DNA of 64,000 nucleotides, taken from Chlorobaculum limnaeum. Its GTDB lineage: Bacteria > Bacteroidota > Chlorobiia > Chlorobiales > Chlorobiaceae. A program made the translations under genes and the position numbers. Below the pieces are notes generated by a model. That model saw only the letters and a program-made list of their open reading frames with translations, was not told the DNA's origin and made no database searches. Shown one piece after another: positions 22,270-31,348 of the stretch (positions within the stretch are counted from its first letter, which is position 1; every line of letters begins with the position of its first letter). The DNA lies in assembly GCF_001747405.1 (NCBI RefSeq), contig NZ_CP017305.1, positions 2,188,001 to 2,252,000 on the forward strand, given 5' to 3'.

Positions 22270-24957
22270 TCATTTCAATTCAAACAAACCGGCCAGATAC
22301 CCGAAGCTCGAAGTCGTCGCGACCTTGTCGTGCGGAATCAGCAGGTATTTCCACGGTTTGCCGTTGTTCGATGTGGTGAATGCGGTGGCATGAGCGCAAA
22401 AGAGCAACGCGGCGGCGGCTTTTTCGCGGACTTCGGGAGCGTCGAGTTCGTTGGCGGCTTTCGTTTCAATCATGCAGATCGCCTCAGCGGTTTCGGCAAT
22501 AAAATCGGGTTCGTACAGCTTTGTGTTGTTGCTCCAGTAGATTCTGAACTGGTTCAGCGCCGGACGCAGCCATTTGATGATTTCGTCATCGTGTTCGAGC
22601 ACGAAAGCAAAATCTTTCTCGGCTTTGGAGTCGAACTTGTACTCGAAGTGGCAGGCTTTCGTGAATCCACGATAGACATATTTCGGAATCGCACTGACCG
22701 GACTTACCGGATCGCGATAATCACGATAGCCGTTTTCGGCAAGAGCCGAGAAGTTCCACGGTTCGATTCTGACGAACGGCAACACGTTGGGTTCACGGTA
22801 TTCCGGCTCGCCCATCCGGAAGTGTGCCCGCATCTGGTCGCAGATCTTGAGCGCGATGATTTTCCGGTACTGACGAACCAGCCAGCGCAACTTCTCTTTG
22901 TCATCGAGGCCCTCTTCGAGTTTGACAAGAGCCTGTCCGGCCAGCTTGTGCAGCAGGTCGGCGTTGCTGTCGTAATCGACCTCGGTGCAGCAGTCGAGCA
23001 CTTCCGAAACAAGCTGGTTCTTCGGACTGTCCGGTTCGCCTGCTCCCTGCCGGACGCCGACCATATCGACCTCGTCGTTCCGGAGGTTCCGCCGGATGAT
23101 CTCTTCGTCCATGAGCCGGAACTCGAAGCCCCGCGCCACGTCGAGATCGAACTCCTCGAACCAGACCGGCACCTCGCCCTGCACGAGATCGATCCGGGGA
23201 ATATCGATGGTGTGCTTCAGAAACCCGGCAACCGTCTCTTCATAAATCGCCGCCGCCTCTTCGAGAATCTCCCCGGCAAAGACGTTGAGCTGGCCCCGGC
23301 CAAGATCGCTTTCGACCTTTTCCATGACGAGCTGCCGGATTTCCGGTTTCAGGCTATCGGCGCTGCCGGTAACACCTTGAGTGGTGCTGATGACGGGCAG
23401 CGCCCTGATGATCGCTTTGCGCGCATCGAGCGTCCGCGTGGCATTCCGTTGCTCTTCGACGTTCTGCATGGCGGCGATCTTCCGCTCCTCCTCCTGCACC
23501 TCGGCTTCGATGCGCGTGACGGAGGTAACGGGAACCGTTCGCGTCGCGAGATCATCGTTTGACAGCTCGATAACGCTGAACTTGTTGAGCACCGAATCGG
23601 GATTTTTCGCCGCTTCGATCACCTTGTCGAAGTTGTCGTGCGCGATGACCGTCAGCGTATCGACCTTTTTTTCGCCGGTACGCTCGCCGTTGTAGGGCAG
23701 GCGAAGCCCGCGCCCGATAGTCTGCTCGATCAGCACGGCGGCATTGGCCGCGCGCAGCGGCACGATGGTGTAGAGGTTGCGCACGTCCCACCCCTCCTTG
23801 AGCATGTTCACATGAACGACGATTTCGATGCCGTTGTCGCTCTCTTCCAGCTCGACGAACTGCCGCTCCACTTCGTCGTCCCTGCGGGTCGAGGAGTCGA
23901 TCTGAAGCACCTTGTCGCTGAACTCGCCGTTGAAAAAGGCCGCCGACCGGAGGTACTCCGCCGTCTCCTGCGCATGGGCAATGTCGCGGCAGACCACGAG
24001 AATGAAGGGCTTGACCGCTTCGACGCCGTTGGTGCGGGCGTAAACTTCGATGGCGGTTTTGGTGTCCCAGTGGAGATTGACGGCGTCTTCGAGCTTGATG
24101 ATCTCGATCTCTTTGTCGGAAAGTCCTTTGGGCTGGAAATTCCTGCGTGTGGCCACGGCGGGTTCCTTGACATAGCGCCCGTCCGACAGCGCTTTGGCCA
24201 GCGTGTATTCATAGACGACGTTCCGGAACGGGTTACCTTTTTCGTCGGTCGGCGTGGCGGTGAGTTCGAGGCCGAGCACCGGGTTCAGCTCGTTGATGGC
24301 GTTGCGCGAGGCGTCGGCATGGTAGCGGTGCGCCTCGTCCATGAGAATGACCAGATCGTCGAGACCGGAGAGGTACTCCCAGTAGGATTGGCCGAGGTAT
24401 TCCGAGAGCCGTTTCATCCTCGGCAACTGCCCCTTCTCCTTGCCCCTCGTGGCGCTGGCGGCGTCGCGGTTGAACTTGGAGATGTTGAAGATGTTGATGC
24501 GGATTTCCTCTTCGCCGAACAGCGCCCCCTGCTGGGCGTAGTTGTCGCCGGTGATGATGACCGGGCGGTTGTGCACGAACTCCGAAATGCCGTTGAAGAC
24601 GTACTTGGCGTAGTTGGGATTGCCGAAATCTTCGATCAGCTTTTCGTAGATGGTGAGGTTCGGCGCGAGCACGAAGAAGTTGCGGATGCCTTTGCGCAGA
24701 TAGAGATACGCGATGCAGGCCCCCATGAGCCGCGTCTTGCCGACGCCGGTGGCGATGGAGAAGCAGAGCGAGGGAAAGGCCCGCTCGAAGTCGGTGCAGG
24801 TGGCGTAGCGTTCTGAAACCACTTCCAGCGCATCCGCCAGATTGGCCTCCTTTTGCAGCGGCAGCAGGTCGGCAAGTTCGGCCACGATGTCGAGCGCTTC
24901 CCGGAGCGGCTGGCGCAGCGAGAGGCGCTGCTTGATGTATGAAGCCTTCTGGTTCAT
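22270..24957 (-). CDS. Type III restriction endonuclease subunit (Res)
   Basis: 895 residues from the ATG at 24957, 7 nt after the methyltransferase stop. An SF2 helicase with Walker A ATGVGKTR (69-76), DEAH box (207-210), LELTATPTDEKGNPF as motif III, and QTIGRGLRLP as motif VI near residue 435. The C-terminal nuclease domain has YEPDFIAETAEAICMIETKA, the PD-(D/E)xK core. With Mod it cleaves unmodified DNA after ATP-driven communication between two sites. An in-frame extension upstream would read into the mod gene and is unlikely. It is intact and full length. Confidence 0.93.
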   Translation of the reverse strand: MNQKASYIKQRLSLRQPLREALDIVAELADLLPLQKEANLADALEVVSERYATCTDFERAFPSLCFSIATGVGKTRLMGACIAYLYLRKGIRNFFVLAPNLTIYEKLIEDFGNPNYAKYVFNGISEFVHNRPVIITGDNYAQQGALFGEEEIRINIFNISKFNRDAASATRGKEKGQLPRMKRLSEYLGQSYWEYLSGLDDLVILMDEAHRYHADASRNAINELNPVLGLELTATPTDEKGNPFRNVVYEYTLAKALSDGRYVKEPAVATRRNFQPKGLSDKEIEIIKLEDAVNLHWDTKTAIEVYARTNGVEAVKPFILVVCRDIAHAQETAEYLRSAAFFNGEFSDKVLQIDSSTRRDDEVERQFVELEESDNGIEIVVHVNMLKEGWDVRNLYTIVPLRAANAAVLIEQTIGRGLRLPYNGERTGEKKVDTLTVIAHDNFDKVIEAAKNPDSVLNKFSVIELSNDDLATRTVPVTSVTRIEAEVQEEERKIAAMQNVEEQRNATRTLDARKAIIRALPVISTTQGVTGSADSLKPEIRQLVMEKVESDLGRGQLNVFAGEILEEAAAIYEETVAGFLKHTIDIPRIDLVQGEVPVWFEEFDLDVARGFEFRLMDEEIIRRNLRNDEVDMVGVRQGAGEPDSPKNQLVSEVLDCCTEVDYDSNADLLHKLAGQALVKLEEGLDDKEKLRWLVRQYRKIIALKICDQMRAHFRMGEPEYREPNVLPFVRIEPWNFSALAENGYRDYRDPVSPVSAIPKYVYRGFTKACHFEYKFDSKAEKDFAFVLEHDDEIIKWLRPALNQFRIYWSNNTKLYEPDFIAETAEAICMIETKAANELDAPEVREKAAAALLFCAHATAFTTSNNGKPWKYLLIPHDKVATTSSFGYLAGLFELK

Positions 24958-24964
24958 GGGGGTA

Positions 24965-26611
24965 TCAGTCGAAAAGATTGGTTTGCACGGATCGCGCCGG
25001 AGCGTCGTTTTCAGGGAGTTCGTCCGGCTCATCGGCGAGTTCATCGGGCGATTCTTCAACCGGAACCTGCACGATGTTCAGGCTGTAATCTTCGCGGCCA
25101 AACTCGCAGCGCCCGAGCAGCATGTGGGGGATTTTTTTGATGGAGATGTTGGCGTGGCGGTTCCGGCACTCACGCTGAAACGCCTTGCAGGCGATGAGCA
25201 GGCTCTCTTCGGGCTGCATTTCATCGTGGATTCCGTCGAGCATTTCGGCGGTGAGAAAGGCGGTCGTGGTGAAGAGGAAATCCTTTTCGCTGCTCCGCGC
25301 CTGCTTCCAGTAAACCAGCTCGTCCGGCTGATAGCGGAACCCCTCTTGCTTGGCCATTGCGGCGGCAAGCATGTCGGGGTTGTACTCCTTGCTGATGATC
25401 CAGTTGCCGTACTTGTCGCGATTGAGCAGCGACGGCGCGAGGGTGAAGTACCGGAACCCGCCGCCACCCTGCCAGCCGACCGCCTTGCTGATGCCGCCCT
25501 GATCCGAGCCGTCAACCACCTTTTTCAACCGCGGCTGGCAATGCGTCCTGGCATGGTCGCCAAGCTCGATCCCGATATACCGCCGCCCCATCTTCTGCGC
25601 CACAGCAGCAGTCGTGCCGGAACCGAGGAAAGAGTCAAGGACAAGGTCGTTCTGATTGGTAGATAAAGTGATAATTCTATGAAGAAGCCTTTCTGGCTTT
25701 GGAGTAGCAAACGCGGTATCTGCGCCAAACAAATCATTTATTTCTTTTTTTGCTTCCTGATTGTGTCCAACCTCGGCATTACTCCACCAAGACCATGCTC
25801 TAACGCCTTCATGTTCGCTTAAAAAATTCTTGGTTCGAGGTCTTGATTTACCGTCTTTTCCAAACCACACGCGATTATCACCTACCAGCCTCAGAAACTC
25901 ACTTTCTATATTTGCCCAGCAACGTCCTGGCGGGGGTTCGTATTCGACTCCTGCCGAAGTCGTAAGTTTATACATTTGATTCGGTCGCCAACCTTGCGCT
26001 GTAAAGTCTGTAGAAGTCCAAGGGCCGCGCGGGTCATTATCTGGATTCTTGAATTGTGCTGATTGGGAAGCGTTAAGTGGTACTCGATTTAATGCAAACT
26101 TAGGGCTGCTTTTCGAGTAAAGCAATACATGGTCGTGGGCGTCTCCGATATATAGTCTTGCATCTGGTGATGTCCTTTTTTGCCAAATAACATTCGCGAC
26201 AAAATTCCTCCTTCCGAAAATCTCATCCATCACAACCTTCAGATAATGCGCCTCATTATCGTCAATCGTCACCCAGATCGAACCATCCTCTGAAAGCAGC
26301 TCCCGCAAAATCCTCAATCGTGGAACCATCAGATTCAACCACTGGCTGTGCTCCAGCCCGTCGTCGTAATGCTCGAACGCGCTGCCGGTGTTGTACGGCG
26401 GATCGATGAAAATGCACTTGACCTTCCCGGCGAAATCCTGTTCGAGCGCTTTGAGGGCGAGCAGGTTGTCGCCCTGAATCAGCATGTTGCCGGTCGTGGG
26501 ATCGCCGTAGCTGAGTTCCGGCTGCTCGATGAGAATCCTCGGTTCGAGCTTCGGCTCCTCGCCCTTGCCAATCCAGGTCAGTTCGAGCTTCTGTTTCTGC
26601 TGCGGTTTCAT
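24965..26611 (-). CDS. Type III DNA adenine methyltransferase subunit (Mod)
   Basis: 548 residues. Motif order is that of beta-class N6-adenine methyltransferases: DPPYN (70-74) first, then VLDSFLGSGTTAAVA (about 324-338) for S-adenosylmethionine. The target recognition domain lies between them, about residues 135-325. That stretch is visibly AT-richer than both flanks (plus-strand 25.64-26.2 kb), the pattern of a swapped recognition domain. It determines the sequence methylated and, with Res, the sequence cut. The start overlaps the stop of the HigA/ImmA gene by 4 nt. The recognition sequence cannot be deduced. Confidence 0.93.
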   Translation of the reverse strand: MKPQQKQKLELTWIGKGEEPKLEPRILIEQPELSYGDPTTGNMLIQGDNLLALKALEQDFAGKVKCIFIDPPYNTGSAFEHYDDGLEHSQWLNLMVPRLRILRELLSEDGSIWVTIDDNEAHYLKVVMDEIFGRRNFVANVIWQKRTSPDARLYIGDAHDHVLLYSKSSPKFALNRVPLNASQSAQFKNPDNDPRGPWTSTDFTAQGWRPNQMYKLTTSAGVEYEPPPGRCWANIESEFLRLVGDNRVWFGKDGKSRPRTKNFLSEHEGVRAWSWWSNAEVGHNQEAKKEINDLFGADTAFATPKPERLLHRIITLSTNQNDLVLDSFLGSGTTAAVAQKMGRRYIGIELGDHARTHCQPRLKKVVDGSDQGGISKAVGWQGGGGFRYFTLAPSLLNRDKYGNWIISKEYNPDMLAAAMAKQEGFRYQPDELVYWKQARSSEKDFLFTTTAFLTAEMLDGIHDEMQPEESLLIACKAFQRECRNRHANISIKKIPHMLLGRCEFGREDYSLNIVQVPVEESPDELADEPDELPENDAPARSVQTNLFD

Positions 26612-27735
26612 TCCTGCTCTCCGCTGTTCAATTCAATCTTTTTGAAAAATCCAAAAGTATGCCCAACGCTGTCGTGAATCACGCCGAGCTTCGCCATCCG
26701 CCCGGCAACAATGGCCGGATGCGTACCAATCTCCGCGGCGAACCGCTCGAAATCCTCCTTGACGAACAGAGGAGTTTCAAGCATCCGCCGCTCATCCTTC
26801 CTGCTGACAAGATAATCGGCAGCCCAAGCGTCGGCCTCATCCTCCTTCTTTTTGCCGTCACACGAATAGTCCGTTCCCTCGATAAACACATCCCTCTTGT
26901 TGTGCTTCAGAATATGGGCGGCTTCATGGAAAAAGGTGAACCAGAAAATATCGTTGCGGTTGAAACGGCCGGAAAGCTGAATCAGCGGCGTGCCGTTCAA
27001 CCAGCGGGTCGAGCCGTTCAGCGGCGCTTTTTGCAGGCAGGGCGTGAACACCACCTTGACCCCGGCCCGGAGGCAACGCTCCTGCAACCCGGCAAGAAAA
27101 CCCTCATTCATCACCACAAGTGTCGATTTTATATCGAGCAACGCCTCCTCGAACGCCTTTTTATCGTACGCCGCCGCTTGCAGCGACTCCGCCTGCCGCT
27201 CCCCCTGCCGGAGCCACGCAGCCATCGCGTAGGGATCCTTGCTGCACTTCTCGCTCATGCGATACGCCGTGGCGTACAACTGCCTGTGGCAGACGCGCTC
27301 ATATACCTCTGGAGAAGCCACATTGAAAAAAGCGAGCAACGCCTGCGCTGTACTGACGACTCCATCCTCGAAACTGATCCAGCCAAGCTTCTTCATGGCT
27401 GCGAGCGGGAACTGTTTGGCCCACGCCTCCTTTTCCAGCAGCGCTTCCGCCGCATCGACCTCAGCGAGCCGCAAACGGTAGCTCCGTTCGAGGTTCATCC
27501 AGAAATCGGCAGGAATGCCGACAACCCGTTCGAGCTGGATCGCCGTTTCTGAGGTAATTTCGGACTTGCCTTTTATGATTTCGTTGATCGTTTTTTTCGG
27601 CCTGCCCATGCGGGCAGCCAGTTCGGCCTGGCTCATGCCGGTGTATTCAAGCTGCTCGGCAAGCGTATCACCGGGGCATGAAATGACTTCACGCGCAATG
27701 GCGATATCCTCTTTCGTTCGGTAAACATTCTTCAT
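26608..27735 (-). CDS. HigA-like antitoxin fused to an ImmA/IrrE-type metallopeptidase domain
   Basis: 375 residues. N-terminal helix-turn-helix of the HigA/XRE type at about 22-75 (YTGMSQAELAARMGRPKKTINEIIKGKSEITSETAIQLERVVG, then FWMNLERSYRLRLA). The C-terminal half holds the zinc peptidase motif HEAAH (270-274) followed by KHNKRDVF and DEADAWAADYLV, the third ligand region of ImmA/IrrE peptidases. It follows a HigB-like toxin gene by 13 nt and overlaps mod by 4 nt. It probably represses the operon and neutralises the toxin; the peptidase could cleave a regulator. Roles are inferred from family and position. Confidence 0.85.
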   Translation of the reverse strand: MKNVYRTKEDIAIAREVISCPGDTLAEQLEYTGMSQAELAARMGRPKKTINEIIKGKSEITSETAIQLERVVGIPADFWMNLERSYRLRLAEVDAAEALLEKEAWAKQFPLAAMKKLGWISFEDGVVSTAQALLAFFNVASPEVYERVCHRQLYATAYRMSEKCSKDPYAMAAWLRQGERQAESLQAAAYDKKAFEEALLDIKSTLVVMNEGFLAGLQERCLRAGVKVVFTPCLQKAPLNGSTRWLNGTPLIQLSGRFNRNDIFWFTFFHEAAHILKHNKRDVFIEGTDYSCDGKKKEDEADAWAADYLVSRKDERRMLETPLFVKEDFERFAAEIGTHPAIVAGRMAKLGVIHDSVGHTFGFFKKIELNSGEQE

Positions 27736-27748
27736 GGTTGGTGCAGTA

Positions 27749-28084
27749 TCAATGGTAATCGACAGCGATTTCAGTAATAACGATGGCGGTTACCAGCTTC
27801 CAGTCAAGTCCGCCATCCGCCTTTTCAGGAAGCGGGTCATGATCGGGTTCAAAAACAATTCGATGATTCGGGGAGATATCTACAGCAAGTTTACCGGCCC
27901 TGTCAACATGAAGCTCATGGCAACGAAGTCCGTTCAGATGGATGAGCTTTTCAAGATTCGATGCAGCCGAAAACTGCTGAAGCCGGATATCCACTTTTTT
28001 GGCCATCTTGCCATAGTGCCGCTGCATCGCCTTCGGGCACTCGACACTTTTCTCCAGCTTTTTGGTGTGGTAACGAATGTTCAT
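27749..28084 (-). CDS. HigB/RelE-like toxin
   Basis: 111 residues from MNIRYHTKKLEKSVECPKAM. The pattern of a ribosome-dependent mRNA endonuclease is seen: MAKKVDIRLQQFSAASNLEKLIHLNGLRCHELHVDRAGKLAVDISPNHRIVFEPDHDP, ending VTAIVITEIAVDYH. HigB toxins precede their antitoxin, as here with the HigA-like gene 13 nt downstream. It is the first gene of the operon that continues into mod and res. Expression is probably autoregulated through the palindrome upstream. Confidence 0.82.
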   Translation of the reverse strand: MNIRYHTKKLEKSVECPKAMQRHYGKMAKKVDIRLQQFSAASNLEKLIHLNGLRCHELHVDRAGKLAVDISPNHRIVFEPDHDPLPEKADGGLDWKLVTAIVITEIAVDYH

Positions 28085-28124
28085 CGGCAATGTAACATAT
28101 CGAAGAGAGAAAATCTATTATTCG

Positions 28125-28141: not shown

Positions 28142-28341
28142 TTAAAATCAGAAGATCAGTAAAAGGCACCTCTTCACTCAACGGAAGAAATGAGGTAAGC
28201 ATCGACCTGACTGGGTTTCTGATGGACTTTCGTAACACGAAACGGTGACAAGCTGCGAGAAACCGGATCGAAATCGTTTGAGCGCCGCTTCCCGGTTATT
28301 ACTCCGATAACAAAAGATCGCAATCTCCGCCATTGAAAGAT

Positions 28342-28437
28342 ATTGGGCTAAAGCCCTGATTTGTTTTGGTTTATCCACATACCCCGGACTGAAGTCCGGG
28401 GCAATTGTTTAAGATTTTAATGGCTGGAGCAATAAAT
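28342..28437 (+). repeat. Palindromic repeat A, right direct copy flanking the accessory block
   Basis: ATTGGGCTAAAGCCCTGATT, then CCCCGGACTGAAGTCCGGGG at 28382-28401, then CAATTGTTTAAGATTTTAAT. Same orientation and length as 20264-20359. Between 28438 and 28598 I see only the leader of the truncated menH copy. Confidence 0.82.
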
Positions 28438-28598: not shown

Positions 28599-28934
28599 AT
28601 GACATCGCTTCCGAAAACCACTCCTCTCCACCTCGCCACCGTCGGCGATCCGGCGTTGCCGAAGATCGTGTTTCTGCACGGCTTCCTCGGATCGGGAAGC
28701 GACTGGCTTCCGTTCGCCCGCAAGCTTGAGGAGCGCTTTTGCAGCATCCTCGTCGATCTGCCGGGGCATGGCGAAGCGGCGATTCCGGCGGACGGAGAGG
28801 CGGACGGATTTTTCATGCGCACGGTCGATGCGCTGGCGGGCGAAGTTCGGCGACTGAGCGCCGGGCCGTGCGTGCTGGTCGGCTATTCGATGGGCGGGCG
28901 GATCGGGAAAAATGTATCAACTTTTCGGGGATGA
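28599..28934 (+). pseudogene. menH: Truncated duplicate of menH (5' part only)
   Basis: From 28626 to 28907 this DNA matches 29890-30171 of the intact menH without gaps and with about eight differences counted by eye. The frame encodes the N-terminal third, including LPGHGEA and the nucleophile motif VGYSMGGRIG, then runs into unrelated residues KNVSTFRG and stops. It lacks the catalytic Asp and His, so it cannot make SHCHC synthase. A 22-codon ORF (28912-28980, MYQLFGDEMDRLIEEINEEL) begins right at the break and resembles the tail of some larger protein that I cannot identify. Confidence 0.88.
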
Positions 28935-28989
28935 AATGGATCGGTTGATTGAAGAAATAAACGAGGAGTTAGTGGCATGAGGCTTTTGG

Positions 28990-29190
28990 GAATCCCCCTC
29001 GGTCCCCCTTTTTCAAAGGGGAAGGGTGCAGGAGTGGCTATACTCCCCCCGTCCAAAAAGGAGGAGGGTAGAGGATAGAGGCTGCATCCCCCCTCAGAAA
29101 GGGGGGCAGGGAGGATTTTCGACAATATGCCAATGTTGAATCCCCCCCCTTTGAAAAAGGGGGGCAAGGGGGGATTAAAAGGGATCGAGG
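28990..29190. repeat. Cluster of CCCCCTTT/AAAGGGGG hairpins upstream of the DUF559 gene
   Basis: Successive units read GGAATCCCCC, CCCCTTTTTCAAAGGGG (29005-29021), CCCCCCTCAGAAAGGGGGG (near 29088-29106) and a C-tract/TTTGAAAAA/G-tract (near 29142-29165) followed by GGGGGGATTAAAAGGG. They alternate in orientation. The same units reappear after the DUF559 gene. Confidence 0.75.
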
Positions 29191-29235
29191 GGAATTCAGC
29201 GAAAAGGATGGAAGCTGAACGAAAATGCAAAAACG

Positions 29236-29667
29236 ATGGAAGCGTACAACAAAAAACTCAAAGAGCCATCACGAAGATTGCGCTGCGAAATGACCGATGC
29301 AGAGCAGCATCTATGGGGGCGTCTGCGTCGAAAGCAGATACATGGCGTGCAGTTCAACAGACAGAAACCGATTCTTGACTACATTGTCGATTTCTACTGC
29401 GCAAAAGCAAAGCTGGTGATTGAACTGGACGGCAGTCAACATTATGAATCCGAACATCGAGAGAAAGACCGGGTTCGGGATGAGACATTGGCGGAGTTGG
29501 GGTTGCTTGTGCTGCGTTACGACAACCGGCAAGCACTGTTGGAGACTGAGGCGGTGCTTGAGGATATTTATGCGAAAGTGGAAGAACGTTTAGGAATCCC
29601 CCTGGCCCCCCTTTTTCTAAGGGGGAGGCGTGTAGCCCCTCCTTTTTTCCAAGGGGGAGGCGTGTAG
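29236..29667 (+). CDS. DUF559 (Vsr-like) endonuclease
   Basis: 143 residues. The DUF559 core is complete: LKEPSRRLRCEMTDAEQHLW, LRRKQIHGVQFNRQKPI, YIVDFYCAKAKLVIELDGSQHY and LRYDNRQALLETEAVLEDI. The D..E.D-type acidic residues in VDFYCAKAKLVIELDG fit the PD-(D/E)XK fold related to Vsr mismatch endonuclease. The last 24 or so residues (GIPLAPLFLRGRRVAPPFFQ and on) are encoded by the flanking hairpin repeat rather than by the conserved domain. It sits between the two menH copies, with repeats on both sides. Biological role of DUF559 proteins is unknown. Confidence 0.82.
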   Translation: MEAYNKKLKEPSRRLRCEMTDAEQHLWGRLRRKQIHGVQFNRQKPILDYIVDFYCAKAKLVIELDGSQHYESEHREKDRVRDETLAELGLLVLRYDNRQALLETEAVLEDIYAKVEERLGIPLAPLFLRGRRVAPPFFQGGGV

Positions 29668-29790
29668 CCCCTCCTTACCCTCCCCCTTTGAAAAAGGGGG
29701 ATCGAGGGGGATTAAAAAATGGAGCATTTCCAAGTTGACAATGAGTCTGTAATCCCGCTGCCCCCTTTTTTTAAGGTGGAATGCCGCAAG
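29590..29790. repeat. Cluster of CCCCCTTT/AAAGGGGG hairpins downstream of the DUF559 gene
   Basis: GGAATCCCCC with CCCCTTTTTCTAAGGGGG (about 29606-29624), a tandem AGGCGTGTAGCCCCTCC unit used twice (near 29627 and 29659), CCCCCTTTGAAAAAGGGGGATCGAGGGGGATT (about 29684-29713), and a decayed copy near 29758-29780. The first units lie inside the 3' end of the DUF559 reading frame. Confidence 0.75.
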
Positions 29791-29862: not shown

Positions 29863-30672
29863 ATGTCGCCTGCTTCACACATGATCCCCCTCCACCTCGC
29901 CACCGTCGGCGACCCGGCGTTGCCGAAGATCGTGTTTCTGCACGGCTTCCTCGGATCGGGAAGCGACTGGCTTCCGTTCGCCCGCAAGCTTGAGGAGCGC
30001 TTTTGCAGCATCCTCGTCGATCTGCCGGGGCATGGCGAAGCGGCGATTCCGGCGGACGGAGAGGCGGACGGATTTTTCATGCGGACGGTCGAGACGCTGG
30101 CGGGCGAGATTCGGCGGTTGAGCGCCGGGCCGTGCGTGCTGGTCGGCTATTCGATGGGCGGGCGGATCGGGCTGGCGCTGGCGTTGCGGCACCCGGAGCT
30201 GTTCTCGAAAGCGGTGATCGTCTCCTCGTCACCGGGATTGCGGACGGAGGAGGAGCGGGTGGCGCGGCGCAAGAGCGACGAGGGCGTCGCCCGCAAGATC
30301 GAGCGGAATTTCGAGGGGTTCATCGAATTCTGGTACAGCCAGCCGCTCTTCGCGACGCTGAAAAGCCATACTCTCTTCCGCGAGGTCGAGGCGCAACGCA
30401 AGCAGGGAGCGCCGCAAAATCTCGCCCGCGCGCTGCGTCTGCTCGGTACGGGCAACCAGCCGTCATTCTGGAACGAACTGCCCGGCAACCGCCTGCCGAT
30501 GCTCTTCTGCGTCGGCGAAAAGGATGCGAAATACGTAGAGGTCGGGCGTCACATTGCGGAGCTGTGCCCCGAATCGCGCCTCGAATTCTTCGCCGGATGC
30601 GGCCACACGCTGCACATCGAGGAGCCGGAACGGTTTCTGGCGAGCGTGGAGCGGTTTGTGGATCAGTGGTAA
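29863..30672 (+). CDS. menH: SHCHC synthase (alpha/beta hydrolase, menaquinone synthesis)
   Basis: 269 residues, full length. It eliminates pyruvate from SEPHCHC to give SHCHC. The alpha/beta-hydrolase features are VFLHGFLGSGSDW (oxyanion region), LPGHGEA, the nucleophile elbow VGYSMGGRIGLAL, GEKDAKY with the acid and GCGHTLHIEEP with the histidine. Both this copy and the truncated one have CATCATG at the start, which favours 29863 over the ATG six codons later. Its 3' end overlaps the convergent ParE-like gene by 10 nt. Other alpha/beta hydrolases look similar, but the men context supports the call. Confidence 0.9.
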   Translation: MSPASHMIPLHLATVGDPALPKIVFLHGFLGSGSDWLPFARKLEERFCSILVDLPGHGEAAIPADGEADGFFMRTVETLAGEIRRLSAGPCVLVGYSMGGRIGLALALRHPELFSKAVIVSSSPGLRTEEERVARRKSDEGVARKIERNFEGFIEFWYSQPLFATLKSHTLFREVEAQRKQGAPQNLARALRLLGTGNQPSFWNELPGNRLPMLFCVGEKDAKYVEVGRHIAELCPESRLEFFAGCGHTLHIEEPERFLASVERFVDQW

Positions 30673-30962
30673 TCGTCTTCACGCTGATGCCGGACGGCAA
30701 GCACGGTAACGCTCTGTTGGCCGTCGATCTCGAACAGCATGACATAGCCCGATTGGCCGAACGGAATGAGCAGCTCGCGAAGAAATGGATTGTCCGCAAC
30801 TGCTTTCCGGCAACTGAACGGGAAGTCGCGCAACAGGTCAATCGCCTTTCTCAGTGCGGTCAGAGCCTGTTCGGCTGCGAGCATATCTTCTTGCAGAAGA
30901 AAGGAGTAGAGGCGAAGAAGGTCATCTTCGGCTTCAGGGGTAAAGCGAACGTTGAAGCTCAT
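30663..30962 (-). CDS. RelE/ParE family toxin
   Basis: 99 residues: MSFNVRFTPEAEDDLLRLYSFL, LRKAIDLLRDFPFSCRKA, ELLIPFGQSGYVMLFEID and VTVLAVRHQREDDYH form the usual ParE fold pattern (R, F, H near the end). ParE toxins poison DNA gyrase; RelE relatives cleave mRNA; the choice cannot be made here. The start overlaps the antitoxin stop by 4 nt, antitoxin first. Its 3' end runs 10 nt into menH from the other strand. Confidence 0.85.
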   Translation of the reverse strand: MSFNVRFTPEAEDDLLRLYSFLLQEDMLAAEQALTALRKAIDLLRDFPFSCRKAVADNPFLRELLIPFGQSGYVMLFEIDGQQSVTVLAVRHQREDDYH

Positions 30963-31228
30963 GAGCGCTGTTCTTTCACCTCGTTCAGCATCAGCTCCAG
31001 CCTGTCGAGAACCGCCCCGGCATCAACATACTCACCAGTCTGACGGGCGTGATCCCGCGAAGCGAGGCCGCGAGCGATAAACTCCTTCTGGCTAAGCCGC
31101 CGCTCGATGTTCGCCCTGAGCGAAGCCTCGATGAATGCGGAGAGCGTTTCGCCTTCACGTAAAACCTCTTCCGCCGCTTTGCGAAGCTCCGGCTCGACCC
31201 GCAGCGATGGTAACGATGCGCTTTTCAT
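30959..31228 (-). CDS. ParD-like ribbon-helix-helix antitoxin
   Basis: About 89 residues from MKSASLPSLRVEPELRKAAEEVLREGETLSAFIEASLRANIERR, an N-terminal RHH DNA-binding motif. The C-terminal part (LSQKEFIARGLASRDHARQTGEYVDAGAVLDRL) is the toxin-binding tail seen in related antitoxins. It is coupled by 4-nt overlap to the toxin gene and probably autorepresses the pair. Confidence 0.82.
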   Translation of the reverse strand: MKSASLPSLRVEPELRKAAEEVLREGETLSAFIEASLRANIERRLSQKEFIARGLASRDHARQTGEYVDAGAVLDRLELMLNEVKEQRS

Positions 31229-31348
31229 GACAGTCGTGGTTTGATAGTATTGCGTTGCATTTGCAATGCAAATTAGCGATTCAGCGGCGAACATGCAATC
31301 GCCAGTTGGCGCACGTCATGCGCATCATCCACTTTCTATGCTGAATCG

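Follow-up and report, generated by a model that had tools for sequence, protein, structure and literature searches.

A DUF559 nuclease gene flanked by hairpin repeats in Chlorobaculum limnaeum and the association of this gene family with BoxC-type repeats across bacterial phyla

Introduction

The closest described counterparts of the locus analysed here are the REP/BIME/REPIN repeats and their RAYT (TnpA-REP) enzymes, together termed 'REPtrons', which consist of short palindromic, mostly intergenic, dispersed repeats and a single-copy gene with repeats of its own type on either side (PMC3733652, PMC3116915, PMC8266576). The repeat type is clade-specific, and some genomes retain the repeats after gene loss, the RAYT gene being deleted in many E. 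coli strains (PMC3733652). RAYT is a Y1 HUH transposase and its repeats carry a GTAG/CGTC tag; the relatedness of untagged repeat families has been raised as a question (PMC3733652). Orphan palindromic repeats without a known mover include BoxC in E. coli, since the 1990s, and untagged repeats in Chlorobi, Clostridia, rhizobia, cyanobacteria and others.

BoxC/PIT repeats have the design of a purine-type intrastrand triplex motif in E. coli (Holder et al. 2015, PMC4666352). This motif has 23 copies in MG1655, is present in more than 260 genomes and marks loci that are locally more variable than controls, by a mechanism that the authors called unclear; neither a mobility gene nor transposase remnants were reported near E. 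coli BoxC (Holder et al., PMC4666352). Triplex formation in solution has been demonstrated by others for the E. coli motif. The DUF559 protein VsrA of Caulobacter elicits a DNA-damage response when its cytosine methyltransferase is missing and has been read as a mismatch-repair nuclease (PMC12907096).

Here we analyse a window of 64,000 nucleotides (G000:C1:2188001-2252000) from the complete 2,797,276-base (2.80 Mb) genome of the Chlorobiaceae bacterium Chlorobaculum limnaeum, in which a DUF559 gene is embedded in hairpin repeats. Titles, abstracts and terms of the open-access literature yielded no paper linking DUF559 to such repeats; because the search was confined to open-access papers, the novelty of this link is provisional.

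Results and discussion

The DUF559 gene and its hairpin arrays

As the preliminary description had stated, hairpins of one family flank the DUF559 gene on both sides: six pyrimidine-first hairpins lie in two arrays between 28990 and 29716. The family has the form AATCCCCC...CCCCCTTT-nnn-AAAGGGGG...GGGGGATT on either side of the gene, with AATCCCCC feet at 28991, 29139 and 29595 and GGGGGATT feet at 29169 and 29706. The window gene is the sole stand-alone DUF559 copy of the genome, the second Pfam match being a domain within a 1520-aa protein. The locus comprises the following features:

28908..28982, + strand: hsdR 3' end remnant (translation ending in LFGDEMDRLIEEINEELVA and stop), matching the hsdR C-terminus of L044 ORF 6918-9746, which lies directly 5' of the same cassette there
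28991..29021, no strand: left array unit 1, foot AATCCCCC at 28991-28998 and imperfect hairpin CCCCCTTTTTCAAAGGGG at 29004-29021
29088..29117, no strand: left array unit 2, hairpin CCCCCC-TCAGAAA-GGGGGG followed by the degenerate foot CAGGGAGGATT
29139..29176, no strand: left array unit 3, foot AATCCCCC, hairpin CCCCCCTTTGAAAAAGGGGGG at 29144-29164 and third-strand foot GGGGGGATT after a 3-base linker (mirror match 9/9, offset 3)
29236..29667, + strand: DUF559 nuclease gene, 143 aa (PF04480, E=7e-37; conserved residues; AF2 model; PDB matches 3hrl, 3r3p and 1cw0)
29584..29664, + strand: C-terminal extension of the DUF559 ORF (ending in GIPLAPLFLRGRRVAPPFFQGGGV), by translation encoded by the right array and outside Pfam domain 7-115
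29595..29626, no strand: right array unit 1, foot AATCCCCCT and hairpin CCCCCCTTTTTCTAAGGGGG at 29606-29625
29637..29657, no strand: right array unit 2, imperfect hairpin CCCTCCTTTTTTCCAAGGGGG
29681..29713, no strand: right array unit 3, hairpin TCCCCCTTTGAAAAAGGGGGA at 29681-29701 and third-strand foot GGGGGATT at 29706-29713 (mirror match 9/9, offset 3)
29750..29782, no strand: degenerate repeat unit (AATCCCGCTGCCCCCTTTTTTTAAGGTGGAAT), by sequence

The ORF sits between both arrays, and its last approximately 27 codons traverse the first hairpins of the right array, which bears out the earlier claim that the 3' end of the gene is itself made of a repeat unit. Genome-wide hairpin counts were obtained by pattern searches. 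With up to two mismatches, CCCCCTTTN4AAAGGGGG occurs at two places only in the 2,797,276 bases, the DUF559 locus (four hairpins) and the cobU-cobT intergenic array (two hairpins), and the reversed control pattern has 0 matches in the same genome; the window arrays are therefore far above chance.

The cobU-cobT array (L014 5420-5620, G000:1126420-1126620) has orthologues in G006, G032, G034 and G038, in which internal repeats of approximately 35 bp with a GGGGGACAAAATTGAAATCC spacer vary in number; the arrays share common descent and differ in length. It is absent from G002, G008, G010, G014, G016 and G040, where intergenic divergence is too great for a base-exact boundary. The window also contains, at 28296-28436, a dispersed repeat of approximately 140 bp with CCCCGGACTGAAGTCCGGGG, of which a DNA search found dozens of copies here and in related genomes; this is a separate REP-like family with no tie to DUF559 here. 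Furthermore, the cassette is surrounded by a defence and toxin-antitoxin cluster (22270-28090 and 30663-31294) encoding a type III restriction system (Res, Mod), an HTH plus M78 peptidase gene, a small toxin-like gene, and a ParE toxin with its likely antitoxin.

The DUF559 enzyme

The window protein is predicted to be a Vsr-fold nuclease with an intact active site. It matches PF04480 over residues 7-115 with 126 bits (cut-off 20.6), and its AF2 model (mean pLDDT 89.6) resembles the solved DUF559 protein 3hrl (TM 0.88), the EDxHD homing endonuclease I-Bth0305I (3r3p, TM 0.74 by target length) and Vsr (1cw0, TM 0.54-0.70). Residues E20, D49, E60-x-D62, H66, D75 and R78 (numbered by the first aligned residue in the Pfam hit set) are intact; the E, D, ExD, H and D positions are at least 99% conserved in a set of 147 DUF559 loci described below, and the R is an invariant residue too. 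The protein thus shares the fold and the E-D-x-H-D pattern of invariant residues with I-Bth0305I and Vsr. It differs in lying in neither an intron nor an intein and in lacking, within the window, any link to a mismatch or a methyltransferase.

Repeat architecture and BoxC

The purine arm is often followed, after a 3-base linker, by its own mirror image with T allowed for A, as in AAAGGGGGG-CAA-GGGGGGATT in the window. Among 246 hairpins near DUF559 genes, 42% have a mirror foot matching at least 8 of 9 bases, mostly at offset 3, two window hairpins matching at 9/9, and the mean mirror match is 0.798 as compared with 0.655 for shuffled flanks. Where no mirror foot adjoins the hairpin, it is either missing or a second hairpin lies inside the linker. 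The succession of pyrimidine arm, loop, purine arm, 3-base linker and mirror-image purine third strand is common to these repeats and to BoxC/PIT, so on sequence architecture we place them in the known orphan class of BoxC, PIT or intrastrand triplex motifs; the view that they represent a new kind of repeat is not upheld. The C-TTT, CTTCCCC and CCTCC types flanking DUF559 genes widen this class. The difference lies in the gene: the published motif was described as DNA alone, with no mobility gene (PMC4666352), whereas here a DUF559 gene adjoins it.

In E. coli, BoxC-type motifs lie immediately downstream of ycjD, a DUF559 gene between sapF and fabI. BoxC was presumably first noted at this place, beside envM, which we take to be the old name of fabI. 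The ycjD gene and BoxC-like repeats occupy the sapF-fabI interval in approximately 3,400 of 5,426 E. coli genomes and are absent in approximately 2,000 (L143, L203, L205, L206). In genomes lacking ycjD, among them O157:H7, ST131 and ATCC 25922, the sapF-fabI interval is taken up by an RND/MFS efflux operon; the absence is thus a replacement and therefore gives no insertion boundary. No clean empty site for the cassette was found in the E. coli or Chlorobiaceae comparisons. A hairpin-spacer-hairpin unit borders the cassette on pSymB (L146); it is roughly as large as the rhizobial palindromic repeats called RIME, to which it may correspond.

Association of DUF559 genes with hairpins across phyla

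A first set of 80 DUF559 loci from named genomes, picked by similarity to the window protein, was combined with the window to give 81 loci and scanned for GC-rich hairpins whose arms are almost purely pyrimidine or purine, with stems of at least 8 and loops of 2-10. Such hairpins lie within 300 bp of the DUF559 gene in 69 of the 81 loci, compared with 27 of 524 control ORFs (150 aa or longer and over 1.5 kb distant) and 2.7% of random 345-bp pseudo-genes on the same contigs. Hairpin density is 3.46/kb near DUF559 and 0.064/kb more than 600 bp off on the same contigs, a 54-fold local enrichment (binomial p about 1e-166, with hairpins that are not independent of one another). Because this sample had been chosen by similarity to the window protein, an independent one was drawn from the DUF559 matches in 232 gammaproteobacterial genomes, and 26 of its 29 loci pass. 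The proposed enrichment next to DUF559 genes thus withstood comparison with the control ORFs in both samples.

In a merged non-redundant set from many phyla, a pyrimidine-first, GC-rich hairpin lies no more than 350 bp from the gene at 126 of 147 DUF559 loci. Most failing loci have, by eye, the same anatomy with shorter or imperfect stems (e.g. L054, L078, L100, L105, L108); L175 and L282 show no such anatomy by eye. Near the genes, 304 hairpins are pyrimidine-first, 6 purine-first and 45 mixed, as against 81, 8 and 286 far from them, so that purine-first hairpins do not form an alternative class in the 147-locus scan. A repeat common to the upstream and downstream flanks, scoring above the 95% null (null 5%), is present at 96 of 131 loci and is often a long, direct one. 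DUF559 genes are hence associated with these hairpins in many phyla.

A human gut phage scaffold (L145, MT835749, unverified) contains a DUF559 gene flanked by CCTCCCCT hairpins, and might be a vehicle for transfer between hosts. At three loci a second DUF559 gene lies less than 2.5 kb from the first (L056 8750-9049, L093 7881-8174, L269 1597-1815); these pairs are possibly tandem or decayed copies.

Repeat type and protein clade

The hairpins were sorted into four coarse types (C-TTT, CTCTCC, CCTCC and CTTCCCC) and mapped on a maximum likelihood tree of DUF559 (126 rows, 108 columns), in which many forks are weak and near-copies contribute. The labels require 29 changes, compared with 67.9 when shuffled (0 of 200 shuffles as low), and one branch of 20 rows, all C-TTT, unites Chlorobiota, Gallionellaceae, Chromatiaceae, Desulfobulbaceae and others. 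Repeat type matches protein clade even between paralogues of one genome, which have different repeats fitting their own clades in G157 (CCCTCTCCC and CCCCCCTTT), G193 (CCCTCTCCC and TCCCCCTTT), G235 and G198. All 15 genomes with a DUF559 gene of the C-TTT group contain exact copies of CCCCCTTTN3AAAGGGGG, 2-158 each, and the four genomes whose DUF559 has other repeat types contain 0. Likewise, C-TTT hairpins occur in 4/4 gammaproteobacterial genomes with a C-TTT-type gene vs 2/34 with other types only; of the latter two, G293 possesses a gene of the C-TTT clade accompanied by a CTCTTT arm.

Co-occurrence holds genome by genome as well, in agreement with the expectation of the preliminary description. 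Exact hairpins are present in 4/4 Chlorobiaceae genomes with the gene and 1/57 without it (Fisher 1e-5, relatedness uncorrected). Among Gammaproteobacteria, the CCCTCACCC-CCCTCTCCC repeat (at least three copies of CCCTCACCCNNNCCCTCTCCC, one mismatch) occurs in 29/53 genomes that have a stand-alone gene, against 15/179 of those lacking one (p 4e-12), and C-TTT hairpins in 9/53 and 6/179, respectively (p 0.0015), both with relatedness uncorrected.

A strong exception is the gammaproteobacterium G238 (3.4 Mb), which has 164 exact C-TTT hairpins and no detectable DUF559 even at E values up to 10; another mover is conceivable there. Other repeat-rich genomes without DUF559 are G298 (20 copies), G120 (32) and G122 (49), and in G120, G122, G159 and G225 the gene is absent while the other repeat type counted above is abundant. 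A search for DUF559 relics in repeat-rich genomes lacking the gene gave one weak relic, in G298 only. G006 contains 6 hairpins and no stand-alone DUF559. The RAYT/REP system shows like exceptions (PMC3733652).

Mobility of cassettes

Comparison of copies within genomes shows that whole cassettes move in two of them. The gammaproteobacterium G109 contains three cassette copies of 494-532 bp with unrelated flanks and DUF559 as their sole coding content, two of which are 98% identical over 534 bp. The element measures 532 bp in L262 and L263 and has 72-bp inverted ends, with one base different, that include hairpin and foot; both intact copies are bordered by exact 9-bp direct target duplications (GTGCAGATT and GTTTGTAAC), and the third (494 bp, one end partly deleted) by a duplication of 8/9. 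A 9-bp target duplication is typical of DDE transposition. The 532-bp element has room for the DUF559 ORF alone and hence for no DDE transposase, and no partner transposon is seen in G109, since the terminal sequence occurs nowhere in that assembly beyond the three DUF559 copies. In Cyclobacterium jeungdonense, two cassettes of approximately 830 bp, 91% identical, lie at different loci. Among 17 other cassettes with inverted ends no consistent target duplication was found, and in the window no terminal inverted repeats with a target duplication could be made out, G109 being the sole genome in which such duplications could be read.

A candidate two-part mobile system and its alternatives

We favour the view, with a probability of roughly 0.6, that the DUF559 gene works together with the hairpins around it as a two-part mobile system, which resembles RAYT/REP and is built on an unrelated enzyme. 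The repeat would be a hairpin with a pyrimidine 5' arm and a purine 3' arm, whose frequent mirror-image purine foot permits an intrastrand triplex, and the gene would be placed between two copies of its own unit. The Vsr-fold nuclease would recognise its cognate hairpin in a repeat that has become single-stranded or extruded and would make a cut, either at the foot or at a target; through repair or strand transfer, a copy of the unit, alone or together with the gene, would then reach a new site. DUF559 would thus recognise and cleave its own repeat and drive its spread. Because the enrichment and co-occurrence checks held, the analogy to RAYT/REP drawn in the preliminary description is well supported as anatomy, to which cassette mobility elsewhere adds; like REPtrons, these loci combine short palindromic, mostly intergenic, dispersed and clade-specific repeats with a single-copy gene that lies among repeats of its own type, and some genomes retain the repeats after gene loss. 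The analogy does not extend to enzyme class and tag. A Pfam search gave no Y1_Tnp match between the window repeats, the enzyme being a Vsr-fold (EDxHD-like) nuclease and not a Y1 HUH transposase, and the GTAG/CGTC tag is absent from the hairpin feet, which are AATCCCCC / GGGGGATT and equivalents, the repeats having homopurine arms and a mirror-image foot instead. Since these two defining features fail, the DUF559 system is not a member of RAYT/REP.

An unlikely alternative is that the repeats pre-exist as targets and that DUF559 is a free-standing homing-type endonuclease, which cuts empty units and is copied in during repair from the gene-bearing copy, inserting the gene between half or duplicated units and thereby spreading itself while making no new repeat sites. 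I-Bth0305I and Vsr are the closest enzymes with a known role, the gene is flanked mostly by long direct repeats of its own unit, and repeat-rich genomes without the gene exist. Such homing does not account for the G109 cassettes, which have complete inverted ends and lie at non-repeat sites bordered by target duplications, or for the Cyclobacterium cassette at unrelated loci, and it leaves the multiplication of repeat families in step with the DUF559 clade unexplained. The inverted ends and 9-bp duplications of G109, together with the great excess of non-coding repeats over genes, would also fit MITE-like cassettes that carry DUF559 as cargo and depend for their movement on an ordinary DDE or HUH transposase acting in trans. 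We regard this as improbable, as the G109 inverted repeat is confined to the three DUF559 copies with no partner transposon visible, DUF559 and no transposase is always associated across phyla, repeat type tracks DUF559 clade, and Holder et al. detected no transposase remnants around E. coli BoxC (PMC4666352).

It is highly improbable that DUF559 serves the host as a very-short-patch-like repair or anti-mutator nuclease, or as a restriction accessory, with terminators or fragile sites collecting nearby. Caulobacter VsrA triggers DNA damage signalling without its cytosine methyltransferase, and the cassettes of Chlorobiaceae are part of type I restriction islands, both of which suit a host role; terminators, on the other hand, would be neither homopyrimidine-first (304 to 6) nor clade-tracking, such hairpins lie near 5% of control ORFs only, and the neighbouring genes vary among loci. 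The low complexity of the motifs, and nothing further, speaks for chance or an annotation artefact, with GC-rich hairpins near any small intergenic gene; the 54-fold enrichment, the 69/81 vs 27/524 loci and the pyrimidine-first bias of 304 to 6 already refute this, and its probability is negligible.

Under the favoured two-part system, a Vsr-fold nuclease that recognises and propagates triplex-capable hairpins could represent a second, chemically unrelated form of REP-type mobility that explains BoxC and many orphan palindromic repeats and makes DUF559 a pan-bacterial family of mobile-element enzymes; we advance this wider proposal tentatively, at slightly less than even odds. One widespread, poorly understood nuclease family now adjoins orphan repeats with matching specificity, and the question of their mover becomes directly testable in E. 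coli K-12 with ycjD. If the proposal is true, DUF559, present in thousands of genomes, gains a likely role.

The menH duplication and the restriction island

The window contains a 285-bp duplication of menH (28623-28907 and 29887-30171, 96.8% identical), and the single intact menH of G032 confirms that it is a duplication. In Chlorobiaceae relatives, the cassette occupies the junction of hsdR and hsdS in a type I restriction island within the men cluster, and approximately 34 bp of the hsdR end are repeated on its far side. The gene order in L044 is menF-menD-...-hsdR-[repeats-DUF559-repeats]-hsdS-hsdM-menH-menB, whereas the window has truncated menH, the hsdR tail, the cassette and menH, with hsdS, hsdM and most of hsdR missing. 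The hsdR remnant represents the ancestral left neighbour of the cassette. Because the L044 cassette lies in an island next to menH and the window retains the hsdR tail, the duplication is probably better explained by a type I restriction island carrying the cassette that inserted beside menH and then decayed. The duplication itself is real, and the earlier idea that it is a scar of the repeat element is not supported, given that the L044 cassette belongs to an island adjoining menH.

In L151 (G038:C417, 2950-3340), the hsdR end is present on both sides of a gene-less repeat array and is followed by the start of another array, a layout that suggests tandem growth of the unit plus its flank.
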